Assembly (NCBI GenBank): GCA_000433175.1
Contig: HF986704.1
Span: 81,081-95,081 of the forward strand
Direction of reading: 5' to 3'
Length of the DNA stretch: 14,001 bases
DNA from: Prevotella sp. CAG:1058
GTDB taxonomy: Bacteria; Bacteroidota; Bacteroidia; Bacteroidales; Bacteroidaceae
Under the pieces are notes generated by a model, which saw only the letters and a program-made list of their open reading frames with translations, had not been told where the DNA came from and did not search any database. Positions 622 through 9,563 of this stretch are shown piece after piece. The first letter of the stretch is position 1; each line of letters starts with the position of its first letter. Position numbers and translations under genes: made by a program.

Positions 622-1404
622 TCAAAGGTTGGCCTTCAGGTTGCTGCGTATTTTTGTAAGATACGCTTCCATTCCTTTCTCGTCCTTGCGTTCTATGATG
701 CCGAGCAACTCCTTAAGTTCGGTGCGTATCTGTTCTACTTGTTCCGAAGTGTACGGATTGAAGAGTATTTCCTGAAGCAGGTAGTCGTCCTCGTTCAACA
801 CGCCTTTGGCTATGTTCATGTGCCGTTTGAATGTAGTGCCCGGGGCATCCTGGTGTTTCATTACGGCGGCGAACACGAAGGTGCTTACGAACGGGATGCT
901 CAACGAATAGGCGACGGTCTTGTCGTGCTCCTCGAACGAGTATTCGTAGATGCTCAGTCCGATGCGGTTGTACAGGTCCTTGAAGAAAATCCTGCCCATG
1001 TAATCGCCTTCGTTTATTATTATTGCGTTCTCGTGGCTCAACTGGTTAAGGTTGGCAAAGGTCGGCCCAAACATCGGGTGGGTAGACACGTAGCGGTGTC
1101 CGCATTTTGAGTAGAAGTCCTTCAGCCCGGTCTTTACCGAAGCGATGTCGCTTATTATGCAGTCGGCAGGCAAGTGCGGAATTACCTCCTCGAAGGCGCT
1201 TATGGTGTATTTTACGGTCACTGCGTTTATTACAAGCTCGGGTTTGAAGTTCTCTATCTCCTTCATTGTCGTGAACCTGAGCGTGTTGAAGGTAAATCTC
1301 AGCCGCTCGGGAGCCTTCTCGTACACGGCTGTTTCATGCTCGAAGCTCAGCAGGTCCAGGAAGAAGCTGCCCATCTTGCCTGCTCCCAATACAAGTATTC
1401 TCAT
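622..1404 (-). CDS. tyrA: Prephenate dehydrogenase (TyrA)
   Basis: 260 residues. It oxidatively decarboxylates prephenate to 4-hydroxyphenylpyruvate, the precursor of tyrosine, in the cytoplasm. The N-terminal Rossmann fold starts with MRILVLGAGKMG (GxGxxG at residues 7-12) for NAD(P). SDIASVK is at 85-91, and STHPMFGP at 107-114 carries His109, which matches the catalytic histidine of the SHPMFGP motif. FEEHDK (157-162) is the second conserved active-site block. The C-terminal half is the helical dimerisation domain. There is no ACT or chorismate mutase domain; mutase activity is supplied by the neighbouring DAHPS/CM fusion. This is the last gene of the aromatic operon, separated from DAHPS/CM by 152 bases that include a possible internal promoter. 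Family assignment is firm; NAD versus NADP preference and prephenate versus arogenate preference are not resolved. Confidence 0.95.
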   Translation of the reverse strand: MRILVLGAGKMGSFFLDLLSFEHETAVYEKAPERLRFTFNTLRFTTMKEIENFKPELVINAVTVKYTISAFEEVIPHLPADCIISDIASVKTGLKDFYSKCGHRYVSTHPMFGPTFANLNQLSHENAIIINEGDYMGRIFFKDLYNRIGLSIYEYSFEEHDKTVAYSLSIPFVSTFVFAAVMKHQDAPGTTFKRHMNIAKGVLNEDDYLLQEILFNPYTSEQVEQIRTELKELLGIIERKDEKGMEAYLTKIRSNLKANL

Positions 1405-1556: not shown

Positions 1557-2621
1557 CTATTTGTTTACTATTTCCATTTGCTGCCTTACCGATTCTTCAT
1601 GTACTGCTTCGAACACGGTCTTTACGAACTGCGGGTCCATTCCGCACAACGAGCCTTGCGCTCCGCGCTTGTCGAGTATCTCGTTGTAGCGCGATGTCTG
1701 CAGCACGGTCATGTTATGCTCCTTCTTGTATGTTCCTATTTCACGGCATACGCGCATTCTCTTAGCCAGTATTTCCATTAGCTGGTTGTCGAGTTCGTCT
1801 ATTTGGCGGCGCAGTGTGGTTATGCCTTCGGTCGTAACGGTCTCGTCGCGGATGACAAGCAGGCTTAGAATGTAGTCGAGCACGTCGGGAGTTACCTGCT
1901 GCTTAGCATCGCTCCATGCCTTGTCGGGGTCGCAGTGGCTTTCTACAATCAGACCGTCAAGACCGAGGTCCATGGCCTGCTGGCACAGCGGGGCAATGAG
2001 TTCGCGGCGTCCACCGATATGGCTCGGGTCGCAGAAAATAGGCAGTTCGGGTATGCGACGGCGCAACTCGATTGGTATCTGCCACATCGGCAGGTTGCGG
2101 TATATCTTCTTGTCGTAGCTCGAGAAGCCTCGGTGTATGGCTGCAATCCTCTTTATTCCGGCCTGGTTGAGGCGTTCCATTGCTCCTATCCATAGCTCGA
2201 TGTCCGGGTTTACAGGGTTTTTTACAAGTACGGGTATGTCCATTCCCTGCAAGCTGTCGGCTATTGCCTGCATTGCAAAGGGGTTTGCCGACGTGCGCGC
2301 ACCTATCCACAGCACGTCGATTCCGTATTTCAGAGCCAGTTCCACATGTTCTGCAGTGGCAACTTCGGTGGCAACAAGCATGCCGGTAGTTTCCTTAACA
2401 CGCTGCATCCAGGGCAGTGCTTTCTCTCCATTGCCCTCGAATCCTCCCGGCTTGGTCCTAGGTTTCCATACTCCTGCGCGGAATATGTGGCAGCCTTTTG
2501 CTGCCAGTTGCATGGCTGTCGACATTACTTGTTCTTCCGTTTCGGCAGAACAAGGACCGGCAATCACCGTCAGACGTTCGTTATTGCTCGGCAGGTTGAG
2601 CGGTTGTAGTTCAAGTTCCAT
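1557..2621 (-). CDS. Bifunctional DAHP synthase / chorismate mutase (type II)
   Basis: 354 residues, two domains. Residues about 1-255 are a DAHP synthase of the short type I-beta (KdsA-like) class, which condenses phosphoenolpyruvate with erythrose 4-phosphate as the first shikimate-pathway step. Visible motifs are AGPCSAE (21-27, metal-ligand Cys24), RAGVWKPRT (48-56), KNP (134-136), HRGF (163-166), CDPSH (197-201) and ESH (227-229). Residues about 266-354 are an all-helical AroQ chorismate mutase, opening with GITTLRRQIDELDNQL and continuing with IGTYKKEHN; it converts chorismate to prephenate. One protein thus covers the entry step and the branch-point step of Phe/Tyr synthesis. In related fusions the mutase domain also gives allosteric control of the synthase by prephenate or chorismate (family knowledge, not visible here). 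Only 14 bases separate it from the aminotransferase upstream. Confidence 0.96.
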   Translation of the reverse strand: MELELQPLNLPSNNERLTVIAGPCSAETEEQVMSTAMQLAAKGCHIFRAGVWKPRTKPGGFEGNGEKALPWMQRVKETTGMLVATEVATAEHVELALKYGIDVLWIGARTSANPFAMQAIADSLQGMDIPVLVKNPVNPDIELWIGAMERLNQAGIKRIAAIHRGFSSYDKKIYRNLPMWQIPIELRRRIPELPIFCDPSHIGGRRELIAPLCQQAMDLGLDGLIVESHCDPDKAWSDAKQQVTPDVLDYILSLLVIRDETVTTEGITTLRRQIDELDNQLMEILAKRMRVCREIGTYKKEHNMTVLQTSRYNEILDKRGAQGSLCGMDPQFVKTVFEAVHEESVRQQMEIVNK

Positions 2622-2635
2622 TGTGTATTATGTTT

Positions 2636-3832
2636 TTATTTATTATTTGTCATTGTGTTTTTTATGCGCTCAAGAGCTTCTTTTATTTTCATGTCTTTTG
2701 CGCAAAGTGAGATTCGGATGTAGCGTTCGCCGTTGCTTCCGAATATGAATCCCGGCGTGATGAACACCCTTGCTTCATGCAAAACCTTTTCTGTGAGTTC
2801 CTCGGCGTTCGCATATTTGTCAGGAATCCTGCCCCATAGGAACATTCCCACCTGGTTTTCGTCAAACGTACAGCCAAGTTGCTGCATTATCTGTTCTGCC
2901 AGTTTACGGCGTTGACGGTAAGTATTTATGTTTGCCTGGCGGTGCCATTCGTCGCTGTTGTTGTACGCTTCGGCTGCGGCAAGCTGTATTCCGCGGAATG
3001 TTCCGGAGTCAATGTTGCTCTTAATCTTAAGAATCCACTGTATGAAAGTCGGGTTCGTGGCGCACATTCCTACTCGCCAGCCGGGCATGTTGTGGCTTTT
3101 GCTCATCGAGTTGAACTCTATGCAGCAGTCTTTTGCCCCTTCCACTTTCAGCAGCGAGACAGGGTTTTCGTTGAGGATGAACGAATACGGGTTGTCGTTG
3201 ACTACCACGATGGAGTGTCTGCGGGCGAAACTTACGAGCTTGCGGTAGGTCTCCATCTGTGCAGGAGCTCCCGTCGGCATGTTCGGGTAGTTGGTCCACA
3301 TCAGGCGGACGCCCGTCAGGTCCATGCTTTCAAGTTCGTTGAAGTCGGGCTGCCAGCCGTTCCCCTCGCGCAGGTTGTAGTTCACCACTTCGGCGCCGAG
3401 TATCTTGCTTAGCGACGTGTAGGTAGGATATCCGGGATTGGGCACCAGCACCTTGTCGCCGGGATTTACGAAAGCGAGCGTTACGTGCAGTATTCCTTCC
3501 TTCGAGCCGATAAGCGGCTGTATTTCTGTCTGCGGGTCGAGGCACACCCCGTACCAGCGTTTGTAGAAATCGGCCATGGCCTGCCGCAGCTCCGGAGTGC
3601 CCATTGTGGGCTGGTATCCGTGTGCGTCGTCCTGCCGTGCCGTCTCGCACAGCTTGTCTATTGTACCTTTCGACGGTGGCATGTCAGGACTGCCTATGGC
3701 CAGGCTTATGATGTCCTTGCCCTCGGCGTTCAGCTTTGCAACTTCCTTAAGTTTGCGGCTGAAGTAGTATTCGGCCACTGCCGACAGCCTGTCAGCCGGC
3801 TTTATCCTGTATGGTTGGTTGTCTTCCGTCAT
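2636..3832 (-). CDS. PLP-dependent aminotransferase (class I/II), probable aromatic aminotransferase
   Basis: 398 residues, the usual length for fold-type I aminotransferases. SMSKSHNMPGWRVG (242-255) holds the Schiff-base Lys245. NYPNMPTG (181-188) is the conserved Asn/Pro/Gly block, VVNDNPYS (210-217) carries the Asp that pairs with the PLP pyridine nitrogen, and RISLC (373-377) supplies the substrate-carboxylate Arg. Placed between prephenate dehydratase and DAHPS/CM, it probably transaminates phenylpyruvate and 4-hydroxyphenylpyruvate to Phe and Tyr; this is inferred from context, since class I members vary widely in specificity. The ATG at 3832 lies inside pheA, giving a 41-base overlap. 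The next Met is at residue 51, inside the conserved domain, so the overlap is probably real and suggests translational coupling. Confidence 0.93.
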   Translation of the reverse strand: MTEDNQPYRIKPADRLSAVAEYYFSRKLKEVAKLNAEGKDIISLAIGSPDMPPSKGTIDKLCETARQDDAHGYQPTMGTPELRQAMADFYKRWYGVCLDPQTEIQPLIGSKEGILHVTLAFVNPGDKVLVPNPGYPTYTSLSKILGAEVVNYNLREGNGWQPDFNELESMDLTGVRLMWTNYPNMPTGAPAQMETYRKLVSFARRHSIVVVNDNPYSFILNENPVSLLKVEGAKDCCIEFNSMSKSHNMPGWRVGMCATNPTFIQWILKIKSNIDSGTFRGIQLAAAEAYNNSDEWHRQANINTYRQRRKLAEQIMQQLGCTFDENQVGMFLWGRIPDKYANAEELTEKVLHEARVFITPGFIFGSNGERYIRISLCAKDMKIKEALERIKNTMTNNK

Positions 3833-4655
3833 CTTTGTATTCTCCTATCACTTTTAGTTCTCTTGTGAGCGGCATTATCGCGTCAATGCTTTGGCGGTAG
3901 CGTGTAAGGTTGTCGAATGTCACGTCCACGTAGAACATGTATTCCCATTCATGGCCGATGATTGGCAGGGATTGTATCTTCGTGAGGTTGATTTTGTAGA
4001 AGTAGAGTATGCTCAGCACTTGTGACAGACTGCCTTCCTCGTGCGGAAGCGAGAATACCAGACTGGCTTTGTTAGTTGATTCGAGCGGCCTAAGGAAGTC
4101 GGCCTTGTTGGGATTGCTTACCACCAGGAAGCGTGTAAAATTGTGTTTGTTGTCTTCTATTGACTCCTGCAGTATCTTCATGCCGTACATCTTTGCAGCC
4201 GAAGCGTTGCAGATGGCCGCCCATCCGCGGCATTTCTGTTCAGAGATTAATTTTGCGGCGCCGGCAGTGTCTGAGGCTTCGACGGCTTTCAGCTCGGGGT
4301 GGTCGGCCAGGAAGCCGCGGCATTGCATGAGGGCTACGGGGTGGGAGTGTACTTCATTTATTGTCTCCCACGAGTCTTCGGGCAGGCAGCAGATGCTGTG
4401 TTCGATGTGTAGCTTGTGTTCCCCGACAATCGTTGTTCCTGAGTTGCGCAGCAGTTCGTAGTTGTGGAGCAGCGAGCCGGCGATTGTGTTCTCGATGGCG
4501 AGCATGCCTATGACGGTAGGGTCGCGTTTGATGTTCTCAAACACCTGCTCGAACGTGGAGCAGCATATCAGCTGTATCTGTTCGTTCTCGAAATACTGGT
4601 GGGCCGCGATGTCGTGGAACGACCCGATTGAGCCTTGAATTGCTATTCTTTTCAT
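3792..4655 (-). CDS. pheA: Prephenate dehydratase with C-terminal ACT domain (PheA)
   Basis: 287 residues. It converts prephenate to phenylpyruvate. The catalytic periplasmic-binding-like fold shows QGSIGSFHDIAA (7-18), LAIENTIAGS (52-61), SHPVALMQC (104-112) and the catalytic block DNKHNFTRFLVV (168-179, Thr174-Arg175-Phe176). The ACT domain spans about 197-272 (SLVFSLPHEEGSLSQVL, then KIQSLPIIG). The classical Phe-sensing ESRP motif reads QSLP here (residues 228-231), so feedback binding may differ. There is no chorismate mutase domain, unlike enterobacterial PheA; that activity sits in the downstream DAHPS/CM fusion. This is the first structural gene of the operon. Its ATG is 30 bases past the T-run of the leader terminator, so expression should depend on read-through of that attenuator. 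Its 3' end overlaps the aminotransferase start by 41 bases. Confidence 0.96.
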   Translation of the reverse strand: MKRIAIQGSIGSFHDIAAHQYFENEQIQLICCSTFEQVFENIKRDPTVIGMLAIENTIAGSLLHNYELLRNSGTTIVGEHKLHIEHSICCLPEDSWETINEVHSHPVALMQCRGFLADHPELKAVEASDTAGAAKLISEQKCRGWAAICNASAAKMYGMKILQESIEDNKHNFTRFLVVSNPNKADFLRPLESTNKASLVFSLPHEEGSLSQVLSILYFYKINLTKIQSLPIIGHEWEYMFYVDVTFDNLTRYRQSIDAIMPLTRELKVIGEYKDDGRQPTIQDKAG

Positions 4656-4683
4656 ATATTGTTTTTTGTCATTTCCGCTAATA

Positions 4684-4716
4684 CCAAAAATCCCGCCTCA
4701 TTATTGTGAAGCGGGA
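4684..4716 (-). terminator. Rho-independent terminator of the Phe/Tyr attenuator
   Basis: Read on the minus strand, TCCCGCTTCA and TGAGGCGGGA form a 10-position stem (one C/A mismatch) around a six-base loop, followed directly by UUUUUGG. It lies between the leader ORF and pheA, 30 bases before the pheA ATG, so it terminates the leader transcript and not an upstream gene. Its 5' arm is also the partner of the antiterminator arm at 4774-4782. Confidence 0.85.
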
Positions 4717-4782
4717 CTTGATTGTATCTTTCTTTAAGATATCTTTGTCATAAGTTGAAATTTACACGCAACTTCCCGCTTC
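4708..4782 (-). promoter_or_regulatory. Antiterminator pairing of the Phe/Tyr attenuator
   Basis: On the minus strand GAAGCGGGA (4782-4774), inside the leader ORF, is a perfect 9-base complement of TCCCGCTTC (4716-4708), the 5' arm of the terminator. The two pairings exclude each other: if 4774-4782 is free, it can capture 4708-4716 and prevent the terminator; if it is covered by a ribosome, the terminator forms. The upstream arm ends 12 bases before the leader stop codon, so a ribosome waiting at the stop would sit on it. Confidence 0.8.
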
Positions 4783-4839
4783 GCAATGCCTTGCAAAGTA
4801 AAAATAAAAGTAAAAGAAAGATGCATGTTGCTTGTTCAT
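4762..4839 (-). CDS. Phe/Tyr-rich leader peptide of the pheA operon attenuator
   Basis: A 25-codon ORF starting at the ATG at 4839 (MNKQHAS) and stopping at TAA 4762-4764. Residues 8-15 are FFYFYFYF, eight consecutive aromatic codons (five Phe, three Tyr), followed by ARHCEAGSCV. The operon makes exactly these two amino acids. The run lies upstream of the antiterminator arm encoded by the Glu-Ala-Gly codons (residues 20-22). Shortage of charged tRNA-Phe or tRNA-Tyr should stall ribosomes in the run and favour read-through; plenty should carry them to the stop and favour termination. This is the logic of E. coli pheL/trpL. A second frame starting at 4826 also encodes a short Phe-containing peptide, but it fits the RNA structure less well. 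Translation is inferred, not shown. Confidence 0.85.
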   Translation of the reverse strand: MNKQHASFFYFYFYFARHCEAGSCV

Positions 4840-4864
4840 TGTCGTTATTTTTAATATTTTGATG

Positions 4865-4896
4865 CAAAAATAATGCTTTTGTCTGAATTGTGCAAG
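4865..4896 (-). promoter_or_regulatory. Promoter of the aromatic amino acid operon
   Basis: On the minus strand CTTG (4893-4896, within TTCTTG) is followed after 20 nt by TATTTTTG (4865-4872), a perfect match to the Bacteroidetes TAnnTTTG -7 box; the -33 box has one mismatch. The expected start near 4858 gives a leader of about 200 nt before pheA, containing the leader ORF and both alternative hairpins. It lies just downstream of the TPR gene. Confidence 0.7.
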
Positions 4897-4927
4897 AAAA
4901 GATAATGGAATTTAAGAATTTAATTCA

Positions 4928-5794
4928 TCATATCCCAAGCGGGTTTATATTCTTGTAAGCCTCGTCAACTTTCTTAGATATGTTTTCGCCATCGGCGTCG
5001 CCGTTGCCGTTGTTTGCCAATTCGGCGGCGTGTTCTATGTCTTCGTTGCCGCCTTTTTCGTCTCCGGCAACGAGTTTCATCTCACCACGTTCGCGGTAGG
5101 CGTCAATGTTGAACGGATTAGCGTCGATAACTTTGGTAAAGCAGTCTATGGCCGCGTCAGAATTTCCTTTTGCACGTTCTATCCTTGCCTTTAGTGTCAG
5201 GACGTCCTCGTTGTCTTGCGTATGTTCAAGCAACCACAGGGCATCGGCGTCAGCTTCCTCGGTCTCTCCGGCGGCGAGCAGAGTCTCTCCGCGCAGCAGG
5301 TAAGCCTCGGCGTAGTCGTCTTTAAGCGATATTGCCTTTGTAAGCATGGCCACGGCGTTGGTTGTGTCGCCGTGCCCTATGCACGCCCTGGCGTACAGGA
5401 ATGTAGCCTCGGTGTTGTTCGGGTCGATAAGTATGGCTTTCTCGCACGCTTCGCCCATGGCCGTGTAGTTTTCCATCATGTAGCAGACGTTTGCCATGCG
5501 TATGTACACCTGTATGTTGTCGGGCTGGGCTTCAGCTATTTTCAGCAGGTTGTCGTAAGCCTCGGGCAGCATGTCTGCACGTATCATTGCCTGCGACATA
5601 TAGTCGCGTATCTCGAGGTCTTCCTTCATTTGCAGTGCGTGTGTGAAGCACTTTATGGCATAGTCGTGTTGTCCGGAGCGCAGCGCGCGTACTCCGTCAT
5701 ATTTCAACACGTCAAAATTCTTCTCTTCTTCCGCCTTTTTCTTGTCTTCGGGTTTCTCTTCCTTTCCGCCGAACAGTGCCTTAAAGAAATTCAT
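4928..5794 (-). CDS. Tetratricopeptide-repeat protein
   Basis: 288 residues, built almost entirely of TPR-type helix pairs from about residue 28 to 262. Examples of repeat units are FDVLKYDGVRALRSGQHDYA (27-46), AYLLRGETLLAAGETEEA (164-181) and DAYRERGEMKLVAGDEKG (231-248). The N-terminus is MNFFKALFGG followed by a Lys/Glu-rich charged stretch (11-26). No signal peptide or membrane helix is visible, so it is probably cytoplasmic. TPR arrays are protein-binding scaffolds; no catalytic motif is seen and the partner is unknown. The gene has its own promoter and lies directly upstream of the aromatic operon promoter on the same strand. No obvious terminator separates them, so some read-through into the pheA leader is possible. 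Confidence 0.88.
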   Translation of the reverse strand: MNFFKALFGGKEEKPEDKKKAEEEKNFDVLKYDGVRALRSGQHDYAIKCFTHALQMKEDLEIRDYMSQAMIRADMLPEAYDNLLKIAEAQPDNIQVYIRMANVCYMMENYTAMGEACEKAILIDPNNTEATFLYARACIGHGDTTNAVAMLTKAISLKDDYAEAYLLRGETLLAAGETEEADADALWLLEHTQDNEDVLTLKARIERAKGNSDAAIDCFTKVIDANPFNIDAYRERGEMKLVAGDEKGGNEDIEHAAELANNGNGDADGENISKKVDEAYKNINPLGI

Positions 5795-6864: not shown

Positions 6865-6918
6865 TGACAACCGCCAACGCCTGATGATACCACCGGGCGT
6901 TGGTGGTTGTCAGTTTTT
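6865..6918 (+). terminator. Terminator after the exported-protein gene, overlapping the copA 3' end
   Basis: TGACAACCGCCAACGCC (6865-6881) pairs over 17 bp (one G/T wobble) with the arm at 6896-6912, around a 14-base loop, followed by G then TTTTT (6914-6918) on the plus strand. The minus-strand stop codon of the copper ATPase (6910-6912) lies inside the right arm. On the minus strand there is no T-run after the hairpin, so its role for copA is less clear. Confidence 0.8.
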
Positions 6919-8814
6919 CATCATGTTTAGCCGCAGGCTGTTGAGTACCACGCTGATGCTAGAGAAGGCCATCAGTGCGCTCGCCCACATCGGCGTTATC
7001 TGCCATTGTGCGCCGAAGATGTAAGGGACACCTGCTGCGAGCGGTATGCAGACGACGTTGTAGATGAACGCCCAGAACAGGTTTTGCTTAATCATTCCCA
7101 CCGTGGCGCGCGACAGCCGGATGGCGTCGGGTATGCGGCGTAGGTCGGTGCCCATCAGCGTTACCTGCGCCACGTCCATTGCAATGTCTGTTCCTTTGCC
7201 CATGGCTATGCTAACGTCGGCGGCGGCGAGGGCTTGCGTATCGTTGATACCGTCGCCTACCATTGCCACGTGCTTGCCTTCGGCTTGCAGCTGCCTTACC
7301 ATGTCCTCCTTGTCCTGCGGCATCACCTGGCTGCGGTAGTGCCTTATTCCGGCTTTGTCAGCCCAGTAGCGTGCGGCCTCGTCCTTGTCGCCGCTCATCA
7401 TGTACACCTCTATGCCTTCCTGTTGCAGGGCTTCCATAGCCTCGCGCGCATGCGGTTTAAGTGTTTCGCGCTCTTCAAGCGACAGGTTGTCGGCCTTTGT
7501 GAAGTCCACGTCCTTGTTGGGGGTGGTCAGCGTTCCCGTCTTGTCTATCACGAGTGCGTCAATCTTGCGTATGTCTTCAAGTGCCGCGGCGTCCTTTATC
7601 AGTATGTTCTTGCGTGCCGCCTTGCCTATGCCTACCATCAGCGCCGTGGGCGTTGCCAGGCCGAGGGCGCACGGACAGGCTATGACTAGTACCGACACTG
7701 CCGAGAGGACGGCATGGGGCAGGCTGGCGTTGCCGCCTATGGCGTACCACAATATGAACGTAACGGCCGACAGGCATAATACCGCTGGCACGAACACAAG
7801 GGCTATCTTGTCGACAACGCGCTGCACGGGGGCCTTGCTGCCCTGGGCTTCCTGCACCATCTTTATTATCTGCGCGAGCATGGTCTCGGCTCCTACTTGA
7901 CGGGCACTGAAGCGCAGGCTGCCCTGCTTGACTATTGTCCCTGCAAACACTTTGTCGCCGGCCTTTCTCTGTGCAGGCGTAGGCTCGCCCGTAATCATGC
8001 TTTCGTCAATATAGGCTTCGCCTGTCGTGACGATGCCGTCCACGGGCACTTTCTCGCCTTGTCGTATCTCAATGGTGTCGCCTTTTTCGAGGGTCGCAAT
8101 CGGTACGTCGTCCACATCGTTTCCGTTGACTACGTGTGCCGTCTTGGGCGCAAGTCCCATCAGTGCGCGGATGGCTGAGGCTGTGCCCTTCTTTGCCCTT
8201 TCCTCGAGCATACGTCCTGTCAGGACGAATGTTATTATCATTACCGACGCGTCATAGTAAGTGTGGTTTTCTATGCCGCGCGAGCCCCAGAAAGACTCTC
8301 CCCTGAAAGTGTTGAACACGCTGAACAGGAACGATATTGCCGTACTCATGGCCACGAGCGTATCCATGTTGGCCGAGCCGTGGCGCAGCTGCTTCCATGT
8401 GTTCGAGTAAAACATGTTTCCGCAATACACAATGTTGGCCAACGCTAATACGAGCATCAGTTGGTTGGCCGAATCCGTGCTGCCTGTGTCGAGCCAGTTC
8501 ATTGACAGGCTCATGGTAAGCAGCGCGAGCAGCCACGACGTTATGACTTTCCTGACAAGCCGGCGGTATGCCGTACGCTCTATTGCTTCGACCGATTCGC
8601 CCTCGTCTATGACAAGGTCGTATCCGGCTTTGATGATTTCGCTTTTCATCATTGCCGGCGTGATTACTTTCGGGTCGTATTCTATCAGGGCCGTGCGGGC
8701 GGCGAAGTTGACGCTTGCTGATTGTATGCCGTCAAGCTGGTTGAGCCTCCTTTCGACGTTGGCGGCGCATCCGGCGCACGCCATGCCTGTTACTGCTATT
8801 GTTTTTTTCTCCAT
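6910..8814 (-). CDS. copA: CopA-type copper-translocating P1B ATPase with truncated nucleotide-binding domain
   Basis: 634 residues; most CopA proteins are 720-800. Inner-membrane Cu(I) exporter. An N-terminal HMA domain carries GMACAGC (10-16, Cys13 and Cys16). Eight hydrophobic segments are expected (about 92-108, 117-135, 150-170, 188-205, 338-357, 366-392, 575-597, 608-628). The actuator-domain TGE is at 275-277, the ion-site CPC at 380-382, the phosphorylated Asp424 in DKTGTLT (424-430), and GDGIND at 520-525. Cu(I) residues Tyr585-Asn586 and MAFSS (615-619) support a P1B-1 copper pump. Odd: only about 21 residues lie between DKTGTLT and LKPHAREAM (452-460), where about 110-130 of N-domain, with the SEHP motif, are expected. 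The frame is unbroken, so it is not a frameshift. The TGDN block reads SGDK (474-477). The HMA-AraC regulator gene lies 179 bases upstream. Confidence 0.93.
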   Translation of the reverse strand: MEKKTIAVTGMACAGCAANVERRLNQLDGIQSASVNFAARTALIEYDPKVITPAMMKSEIIKAGYDLVIDEGESVEAIERTAYRRLVRKVITSWLLALLTMSLSMNWLDTGSTDSANQLMLVLALANIVYCGNMFYSNTWKQLRHGSANMDTLVAMSTAISFLFSVFNTFRGESFWGSRGIENHTYYDASVMIITFVLTGRMLEERAKKGTASAIRALMGLAPKTAHVVNGNDVDDVPIATLEKGDTIEIRQGEKVPVDGIVTTGEAYIDESMITGEPTPAQRKAGDKVFAGTIVKQGSLRFSARQVGAETMLAQIIKMVQEAQGSKAPVQRVVDKIALVFVPAVLCLSAVTFILWYAIGGNASLPHAVLSAVSVLVIACPCALGLATPTALMVGIGKAARKNILIKDAAALEDIRKIDALVIDKTGTLTTPNKDVDFTKADNLSLEERETLKPHAREAMEALQQEGIEVYMMSGDKDEAARYWADKAGIRHYRSQVMPQDKEDMVRQLQAEGKHVAMVGDGINDTQALAAADVSIAMGKGTDIAMDVAQVTLMGTDLRRIPDAIRLSRATVGMIKQNLFWAFIYNVVCIPLAAGVPYIFGAQWQITPMWASALMAFSSISVVLNSLRLNMMKN

Positions 8815-8993: not shown

Positions 8994-9563
8994 TTACAGT
9001 CCGACCTTGTCTAATTGTTTAAGGCTTTTCTTGCCCGCCGCCTTGAATTGTGAAGGCGTCATGCCCGTTACGCTCTTGAACTGGGTGCTCAGGTATGCCG
9101 TGCTTGAATAGTTCATCTTCAATGCTATTTCGCTGACCGACATTTCGTCGTAAAATAAAAGTTCTTTTACACGCTCTATTTTTTGAAGTATGACATACCT
9201 CTCGATAGTCATGCCAGTGCTTTCGGAGAAGAGTTTGCTCAGCGTGCTGTAATCGGTGGCGAGCTTGCCTGACAGGTGTGTAGACAGGTTGACGTCTGAT
9301 TTGTTATCCTTATAGTGTACAAGTTCTATTATTTCGCTTTTTATCCTGTCTATGATCTGTTTCTGCTTGTCTTCAAGCAGTTCGAAACCTAAGTCGCATA
9401 GGGTAGCACGTATCTCGTCGGTTTTGTCTTTGTCTATTTCACCTTCGATATCGGCAATGCCAAGCTCAACCGATACCGGCTTCAGTCCCAGGCTTTGCAG
9501 GGCGTTTTTAACGGCGGCCTTGCACCTGTCGCAAACCATGTTTTTTATGTAAAGTGTGGTCAT
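8994..9563 (-). CDS. AraC-family transcriptional regulator with N-terminal heavy-metal-associated domain
   Basis: 189 residues. Residues 1 to about 65 form an HMA fold (TTLYIKNMVCDRC, Cys11 and Cys14 in MxCxxC; beta strands near 30-42 and 57-64). Residues about 90-175 are an AraC DNA-binding domain with both helix-turn-helix units: LATDYSTLSKLFSESTGMTI (101-120) and VSEIALKMNYSSTAYLSTQF (143-162), ending in the family signature FKSVTGMTPSQFK (162-174). There is no cupin or other ligand domain, so the metal site is presumably the sensor. It lies directly upstream of copA on the same strand, and the gap holds AraC-like direct repeats, so it probably activates copA when Cu(I) binds. Its stop codon is part of a 9-bp inverted repeat (8943-8951 / 8991-8999). 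Cu versus other soft metals cannot be settled from sequence. Confidence 0.9.
   Translation of the reverse strand: MTTLYIKNMVCDRCKAAVKNALQSLGLKPVSVELGIADIEGEIDKDKTDEIRATLCDLGFELLEDKQKQIIDRIKSEIIELVHYKDNKSDVNLSTHLSGKLATDYSTLSKLFSESTGMTIERYVILQKIERVKELLFYDEMSVSEIALKMNYSSTAYLSTQFKSVTGMTPSQFKAAGKKSLKQLDKVGL

Follow-up and report, generated by a model that had tools for sequence, protein, structure and literature searches.

The pheA operon in the window (the whole stretch of 14,001 nucleotides analysed here) is very probably preceded by a ribosome-mediated transcription attenuator which, judging from the sequence, would sense charged tRNA-Phe and tRNA-Tyr together. An attenuator had been proposed for this DNA in an earlier note, and comparison with related genomes supports that interpretation of the sequence. 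Upstream of pheA are found an ORF rich in the codons of the end products, a terminator placed before the first gene, an antiterminator exclusive of this terminator, and a geometry that separates a stalled ribosome from one at the stop codon. The same leader arrangement recurs in many relatives within the Bacteroidota, and its anatomy, its conservation, the co-variation of its pairings, its pathway specificity and the link between its Tyr codons and gene content emerge from the computations reported below.

Ribosome-mediated attenuation is textbook knowledge from pheL, trpL, thrL, and ilvL, and a similar course of events can be proposed here. The transcript would begin some 20 nt upstream of the leader ATG, as suggested by a promoter-like box. 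When both tRNAs are charged, the ribosome would read the aromatic codons through to the stop codon and cover segment 2; segment 3 would then be available to segment 4, and termination by RNA polymerase would follow at 4690-4686. When either tRNA is short, the ribosome would stall in the Phe/Tyr run and open the leader hairpin; the freed segment 2 would pair with segment 3, and transcription would proceed into pheA-aat-DAHPS/CM-tyrA. A promoter, transcription-translation coupling and a response to tRNA charging are what we infer in this scheme.

Architecture of the Leader and of Its Operon

The features of the leader and the four genes behind it are listed in Table 1. Re-reading of the window sequence recovers the 25-codon ORF with its FFYFYFYF run, the terminator with its U5 tail and the pheA ATG (4655) 30 nt beyond the U5 tract, as they had been described. 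It likewise agrees that TCCCGCTTC (4716-4708), within segment 3, is a perfect complement of the nine bases of segment 2 and doubles as the 5′ arm of the terminator, whose stem (segments 3:4) consists of 10 bp with one G-U pair. Since segment 3 is common to both structures, terminator and antiterminator are mutually exclusive, a claim upheld by folding of the window, by own-arm pairing and by alignment. Segment 2 does lie inside the ORF, but the 12 bases formerly given between this arm and the stop reach to the end of the stop codon, the distance to the stop codon itself being 9 nt. In the 1:2 hairpin, the final aromatic codons form the inner 5′ arm, and the 3′ side contains segment 2. The folding z-score is -3.99 for the whole leader of the window and -5.73 for its terminator half.

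Table 1. Positions of the leader elements and operon genes in the window.
Feature	Position	Strand	Basis
Promoter-like -7 box TATTTTTG	4865..4872	-	Sequence, enrichment vs shuffles
Leader peptide ORF, 25 codons, ATG...TAA, MNKQHASFFYFYFYFARHCEAGSCV	4762..4839	-	Sequence, conservation
Sensor run Phe-Phe-Tyr-Phe-Tyr-Phe-Tyr-Phe, codons 8-15	4795..4818	-	Sequence, conservation, permutation
Leader (1:2) hairpin: 4828-4822/4770-4764, 4820-4815/4777-4772, 4798-4791/4786-4779	4764..4828	-	Folding, 76-locus alignment
Segment 2, antiterminator 5′ arm GAAGCGGGA	4774..4782	-	Sequence; pairing with segment 3
Segment 3 TCCCGCTTCA, shared by antiterminator (as 3′ arm) and terminator (as 5′ arm)	4707..4716	-	Sequence, folding, alignment
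Segment 4, terminator 3′ arm TGAGGCGGGA	4691..4700	-	Sequence, folding, alignment
U5 tract, where attenuated RNA is expected to end	4686..4690	-	Sequence
pheA, prephenate dehydratase (PF00800)	3792..4655	-	Pfam
aat, class I/II aminotransferase (PF00155); start as called from ORF	2636..3832	-	Pfam, ORF list
DAHP synthase + chorismate mutase, DAHPS/CM (PF00793, PF01817)	1557..2621	-	Pfam
tyrA, prephenate dehydrogenase-like (PF02153)	622..1404	-	Pfam

All four operon products have Pfam domains above their cut-offs; since the NCBIfam matches listed for these proteins all fall below the curated cut-offs, gene names were taken from Pfam. The domains fit each of the four functions named in the earlier note. 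The start of the aminotransferase ORF overlaps pheA by 41 nt, and an upstream ORF for a TPR protein, on the same strand, ends at 4928. The gene order pheA-aat-DAHPS/CM-tyrA is annotated likewise in Bacteroides finegoldii (NZ_OY725947.1), and the PheA of the window is 94% similar to uncultured Prevotella contigs. A search of plasmid DNA matched two named Bacteroidaceae records over 25-28% of the query, and the leader is present in both, encoding MKSFTYAYYFFFYFYFSNKVEREFVCIK in B. finegoldii (L336) and MKALYNTYFFFFYYFYFSNKVKREFVCVR in Phocaeicola massiliensis (L337). These two records, filed as plasmids, carry the operon; the former also holds recJ and dnaG, so at least this one looks chromosomal.

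Conservation of the Leader Across Bacteroidota

Three samples of pheA loci, oriented by tblastn, were compared. The Prevotella-type set comprises the best 80 loci among the matches listed in public genome contigs, whose titles, three apart (L025, L057, and L080), are those of Prevotella, of Prevotellaceae or of a named relative. The order sample holds 96 regions (103/247 genomes matched; 7 genomes omitted as incomplete, weak or already included), and the phylum sample 84 regions chosen manually among the matches listed (258/296 genomes matched), with a tilt to better PheA matches. Together with the window this makes 261 loci, reduced to 257 by dropping four with less than 300 nt upstream (L014, L052, L074, and L176). 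A leader was defined as an ATG ORF of 8-60 codons, located within 450 nt upstream and having at least six Phe/Tyr in 10 codons.

The aromatic run, whose conservation in relatives had been called for as a check, precedes pheA in 76/78 Prevotella-type, 85/95 order and 35/84 phylum loci. Dinucleotide shuffles yield such an ORF in 6/1560, 30/1900, and 23/1680 cases, respectively (0.4-1.6%), and the reverse complements in 7 of the 78 Prevotella-type loci, one order locus and no phylum locus. Among the 190 amino-acid pairs, Phe+Tyr ranks first with 196/257 loci, the second, Phe+Ser, being found at 83. The box TAnnTTTG, which we take to be the consensus for the promoter-like -7 box, is found in the interval from 75 to 15 nt upstream of the leader ATG at 75/76 leader loci of the Prevotella-type set, 65/85 of the order sample and 15/35 of the phylum sample, shuffled sequences having it there in 3.6, 5.5, and 7.0% of cases; in the window, TATTTTTG begins 33 nt 5′ of the leader ATG, with a TTG at 4895-4893 at a spacing of 20 nt.

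In the order and phylum samples, loci having aromatic genes within 3.6 kb number 114 with a leader and 12 without, whereas those devoid of such genes number 6 and 47; a missing leader therefore mostly accompanies a missing operon. The operon is present at both Prevotella-type loci that are leaderless under the 450-nt rule, L071 and L015. In L071, the Phe/Tyr run lies at the outermost edge of the 450 nt. In L015, which has the full operon, the run is absent from the 450 nt before pheA and the region resembles coding sequence by eye, pointing either to loss of the attenuator or to an assembly join.

Comparative Evidence for the Alternative Pairings

A U-tailed terminator is located between the end of the ORF and pheA in 188/196 leader loci (69/76 Prevotella-type, 84/85 order, and 35/35 phylum), and a terminator score of at least 25 is reached in 86.7% of leader loci vs 0.17% of mononucleotide shuffles. 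The eight loci without a scanned terminator seem, by eye, to form bulged or long-loop hairpins, which stay outside the count. The antiterminator duplex is more stable with a locus's own arm than with foreign arms, at medians of -15.8 vs -10.8 kcal/mol in the order sample (p 1e-27) and -16.5 vs -10.9 kcal/mol in the phylum sample (p 5e-11), and at -22.2 vs -21.1 kcal/mol in the Prevotella-type set, where p is only 0.03 because the arms barely differ among loci; all these p values are optimistic, the draws being repeated and non-independent and the loci akin.

In the alignment of the 76 Prevotella-type leaders, 93.9% of the cells of helix 2:3 are paired (at most 54.8% when slid), as are 91.8% of those of helix 3:4 (at most 59.6%) and 87.9% of those of helix 1:2 (37.5-69.8%), the latter structure being favoured in this test as it was taken from the window's own fold. 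Double-change cells amount to 30 in 3:4 (0-6 when slid) and 56 in 1:2 (4-27), but to eight in 2:3, which is not above the 0-9 of the slid controls, and the coevolution argument for 2:3 therefore rests on own-vs-foreign arm pairing. The compensatory stem changes that the earlier note had suggested looking for are thus present for 3:4 and 1:2 and lacking for 2:3 in the Prevotella-type set; its expectation that the alternative pairing be conserved holds, both in the paired 2:3 cells and in the advantage of own over foreign arms.

In each of the three groups, the stretch made up of the run and the arm folds more stably than its mononucleotide shuffles. Among Prevotella-type leaders, the last codons TAC TTT are near-invariant (75/76 each), and the 1:2 helix would explain both these codons and the common CEAGSCV end, both being pairing sequence. 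At position -4 of the run, Tyr is found in 74/76, encoded by TAT in 40 and TAC in 34, a synonymous change. As a side observation, Phe is encoded by TTT in 86% of cases in these leaders (n=301) vs 22% in pheA (n=838); pairing would account for TTT in the final leader codons only.

Position of the Ribosome and State of the Switch

The gap between the last aromatic codon and the arm measures 7-15 nt in 168/188 loci, which is about the reach of the ribosome's leading edge, given the size of its footprint. In computed foldings, a ribosome set on the stop codon brings the 2:3 pairing down to 0.00 (median of every group), and one stalled on the last aromatic codon leaves it at medians of 0.90-0.95; for the window, the values are 0.00 at the stop vs 0.97 for a stall in the sensor run. 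After omission of seven of the 188 loci for odd spacing, the value for the stalled ribosome is higher than that at the stop codon in 66/67, 75/79, and 29/35 loci, that is 170/181, and 11/181 show no such difference.

The 2:3 pairing is also favoured at equilibrium with no ribosome and segment 4 not yet made (median 0.87-0.95, window 0.96): the leader does have the 1:2 hairpin, but at equilibrium 2:3 wins before segment 4 appears. Once the RNA is complete, the terminator is the favoured structure (0.93-0.95). Since 2:3 can form at equilibrium without a ribosome or with any stall before the arm, as long as the terminator 3′ arm is not yet made, the model predicts OFF through a ribosome at the stop codon and otherwise needs folding kinetics, to which it leaves the untranslated state; the stall-vs-stop folding cannot separate aromatic from earlier codons, the stall itself being provided by the codons.

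Tyrosine Codons and Gene Content

The Tyr content of the leaders follows the genes behind them. Where pheA is alone, i.e., with other aromatic genes absent from the next 5.5 kb, the run has at most one Tyr in 6/6 leaders (none in L145, L165, L166, L193, and L204; one in L189), vs at least two in 187/190 leaders before pheA with further aromatic-pathway genes and at most one in the other 3/190 (Fisher 1e-9 over 196 leaders, ignoring kinship). On a FastTree phylogeny of 133 PheA proteins with leaders, the lone-pheA cases represent four independent events, and paired tree comparisons agree 4/4 in nearly all pairings, with a median p of 0.125, the floor of the sign test. Low Tyr changed seven times in all on the tree, and thus in part independently of any split of the operon.

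In 5/6 lone-pheA genomes, a Phe/Tyr leader precedes a pheA-less Tyr/DAHPS operon: MNNTFGYYAFYYYFFYNN before tyrA-DAHPS in G316, MAPVHTYYAWSFFFFYFQNKRGHAV before tyrA in G336, MIKNISVFAYFYYYFYFSKK before aat-DAHPS-tyrA in G326 with a one-residue variant in G533, and two leaders in series before aat-tyrA-DAHPS in G396 (aat named by eye in the last three genomes). In the sixth, G540, DAHPS lies at a contig start and tyrA was not found in the genome search. A second round dealt with genomes in which DAHPS is far from pheA. In six of them (G674, G610, G580, G552, G678, and G631), the stretch retrieved around pheA holds no further aromatic genes and pheA has no convincing leader, while a Phe/Tyr leader is found before aat, or about 1 kb 5′ of DAHPS with a gene in between; counted by region, 6/9 second-round DAHPS regions have such a leader (L408-L410 and L413-L415; not L411, L412, and L416). 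A seventh lone-pheA case, G615, has a pheA leader with six Phe and no Tyr, the contig stopping about 2 kb past pheA in this genome as in G610.

The order of the codons is informative as well. In 90 distinct strings from the order and phylum samples, Phe and Tyr alternate above permutation (5.03 vs 4.11 switches, 0/2000), and the distance between last Phe and last Tyr is shorter than chance (7/2000 permutations), kinship being ignored in both. This fits a shortage of either amino acid stalling the ribosome near the same place, as had been argued from the alternation in the window alone. The proposal of two-input sensing also gains support, Tyr codons being nearly gone at lone pheA and present before several split-off Tyr/DAHPS operons.

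Leaders of Other Pathways

Leader ORFs of this type are not restricted to pheA in the order. A His-rich ORF is found upstream of hisG at 25/30 loci (L338-L367; mononucleotide shuffles 4.2%), and a Trp-run ORF upstream of trpE-like genes at 19/26 loci (L368-L393; shuffles 0.2%), a count which leaves out L394-L397 and matches without a locus; the name trpE-like is tentative, as 0/60 genomes score above the TIGR00564 cut-off. When the three ORF types are crossed, Phe/Tyr, His, and Trp ORFs number 120, 1, and 4 upstream of pheA (order and phylum, n=179), 1, 25, and 0 upstream of hisG (n=30), and 1, 0, and 19 upstream of trpE-like genes (n=26), so that each type of leader peptide agrees with the pathway encoded downstream of it. 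Like the pheA leader, the His and Trp leaders are short ORFs with repeated end-product codons upstream of a biosynthetic gene, a likeness drawn from the ORF alone; unlike it, they are devoted to a single amino acid.

Alternative Explanations

A leader that senses Phe only, with Tyr codons as neutral neighbours, would be the equivalent of E. coli pheL, itself Phe-only, and would suit an operon with pheA as its first gene. A Phe codon closes the aromatic run in 21/22 distinct Prevotella-type strings and 65/90 others, and one-Tyr leaders exist at three operon loci. Such a leader nevertheless seems unlikely in view of the contrast between lone-pheA and operon leaders (at most one Tyr in 6/6 vs at least two in 187/190), of the Tyr-containing leaders of several pheA-less Tyr/DAHPS operons, and of an alternation and a nearness of last Phe and last Tyr that exceed permutation, kinship ignored; joint sensing of both charged tRNAs is the reading preferred here.

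Even less probable is nascent-peptide arrest, for which TnaC is the model: a conserved peptide would act in the exit tunnel and sense the free amino acid, not tRNA charging. The strong conservation of the peptide in Prevotella-type loci, many of which share CEAGSCV, could be read in this way, but CEAGSCV is the translation of segment 2 and adjoining sequence, and the final codons TAC TTT GCA belong to the 1:2 arm; across the order and phylum samples the C-terminus mostly differs while the pairing is retained, and hisG and trpE-like genes are preceded by His-run and Trp-run leaders. It is hardly credible that the ORF is a chance T-rich one next to an ordinary terminator, with no regulation. The run is T-rich and the TPR-protein ORF on the same strand ends close by, at 4928, but a promoter-like box separates the leader from the TPR gene, shuffles give 0.4-1.6% where 42-97% are observed, the variation inside the run is synonymous and in frame, and 188/196 leader loci have the terminator. 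The charging-dependent attenuator thus remains by far the best account of the leader.

Relation to Known Systems

Both E. coli pheL and the Rfam family RF01859 (Phe_leader) have, as in the window, a Phe-rich leader ORF and a terminator before pheA. Among the Rfam matches below threshold, RF01859 ranks first and spans the whole leader of the window (25.9 bits, E 0.018), although this score is below half of the gathering threshold (55) and segment 2 falls in an unaligned 32-nt stretch. At gathering, no Rfam match was obtained for the window or for the loci of 14 relatives; the T-box in particular has no such match in the window and is absent from the nine Rfam matches at E<=10 in 4650-4900. Unlike in pheL, 3/8 sensor codons in the window are Tyr, and the operon adds aat, DAHPS/CM, and tyrA. 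E. coli thrL senses Thr and Ile, and ilvL senses Ile, Val, and Leu, so that one leader serves several end products of one operon, as proposed for the window; the Bacteroidota leaders differ from both by using other amino acids and by a codon set that follows gene content among related genomes.

The kind of attenuator is already known, and the locus has in part been noticed before: according to the relevant passages on Flavobacterium psychrophilum, RNA data gave clues for leader-peptide attenuation at amino-acid operons, and pheA has a structured 5′ element, conserved in Flavobacteriaceae and without an Rfam match (PMC9723704). This element is likened to that of the window by phylum and gene alone; the pheA section of the paper does not give a leader peptide, codons or alternative pairing, unlike the present analysis (PMC9723704). 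The earlier note knew of no experimental proof in this phylum; the F. psychrophilum clues are a qualification to be added to its interpretation (PMC9723704). In the part of Seliverstov 2005 consulted, Phe is listed under attenuators and Tyr under T-boxes (PMC1262725). In a map of Bacteroides thetaiotaomicron, sORFs in long 5′ UTRs resemble leader peptides, pheA being absent from the main text (PMC7366714). Among the matches listed, open-licence full-text literature gave no Phe/Tyr leader in Bacteroidota, nor did it describe a leader of this kind that senses Tyr, a codon composition that goes with gene content, or tandem modules.

The mechanism itself is unsurprising; should it operate as proposed, close coupling of transcription and translation would be needed at these operons, tRNA charging would set aromatic amino-acid synthesis in these bacteria, and leader codon content would help to predict an operon's end products. 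Bacteroidota gain a concrete set of leader-peptide attenuators in which lone pheA vs joint operons provides a natural experiment for two-amino-acid sensing, and both two-input sensing and coupling become directly testable in the phylum. The balance is about even on a wider reading, in which ribosome attenuators of Bacteroidota form a large set that is easily re-wired, with leader codons tracking the gene products: Phe where pheA is alone, Phe+Tyr where the operon is joint, perhaps Phe+Tyr+Trp with a shared DAHP synthase, and sometimes two modules in series. If this wider reading is true, these would be the first Tyr-sensing ribosome attenuators as far as the literature search reached, and leading ribosomes would have to stay near RNA polymerase in a phylum reported in a review to be without Shine-Dalgarno interactions at initiation (PMC10931766).

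Further Observations

Two Phe/Tyr leader ORFs in series are found at 22 pheA loci, 17 of which have a scored terminator after each ORF by the terminator scan only, with no shuffle control (L146, L147, L152, L196, L198, L199, L205, L207, L210, L212, L218, L219, L223, L228, L230, L232, and L238). Further serial leaders were seen by eye in L321 and L410, upstream of aat, and in L405 and L407. Tandem leaders changed 11 times on the tree and are possibly tandem ribosome attenuators.

In the order and phylum leaders, Trp makes up 30/664 non-Phe/Tyr residues near the run vs 15/968 elsewhere (p 5e-4), e.g., inside or beside the run in L196, L211, L219, L243, and L247, with 20 changes on the tree. Trp is possibly a third input via the shared DAHP synthase, which is to be taken as a lead only.

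Elsewhere in the window, the product of 8994-9563 (minus strand) combines an HMA metal-binding domain at its N-terminus with an AraC-type HTH and is possibly a metal-responsive AraC regulator, and the adjoining ORF at 6910-8814 (minus strand) resembles, by eye, a metal P-type ATPase.
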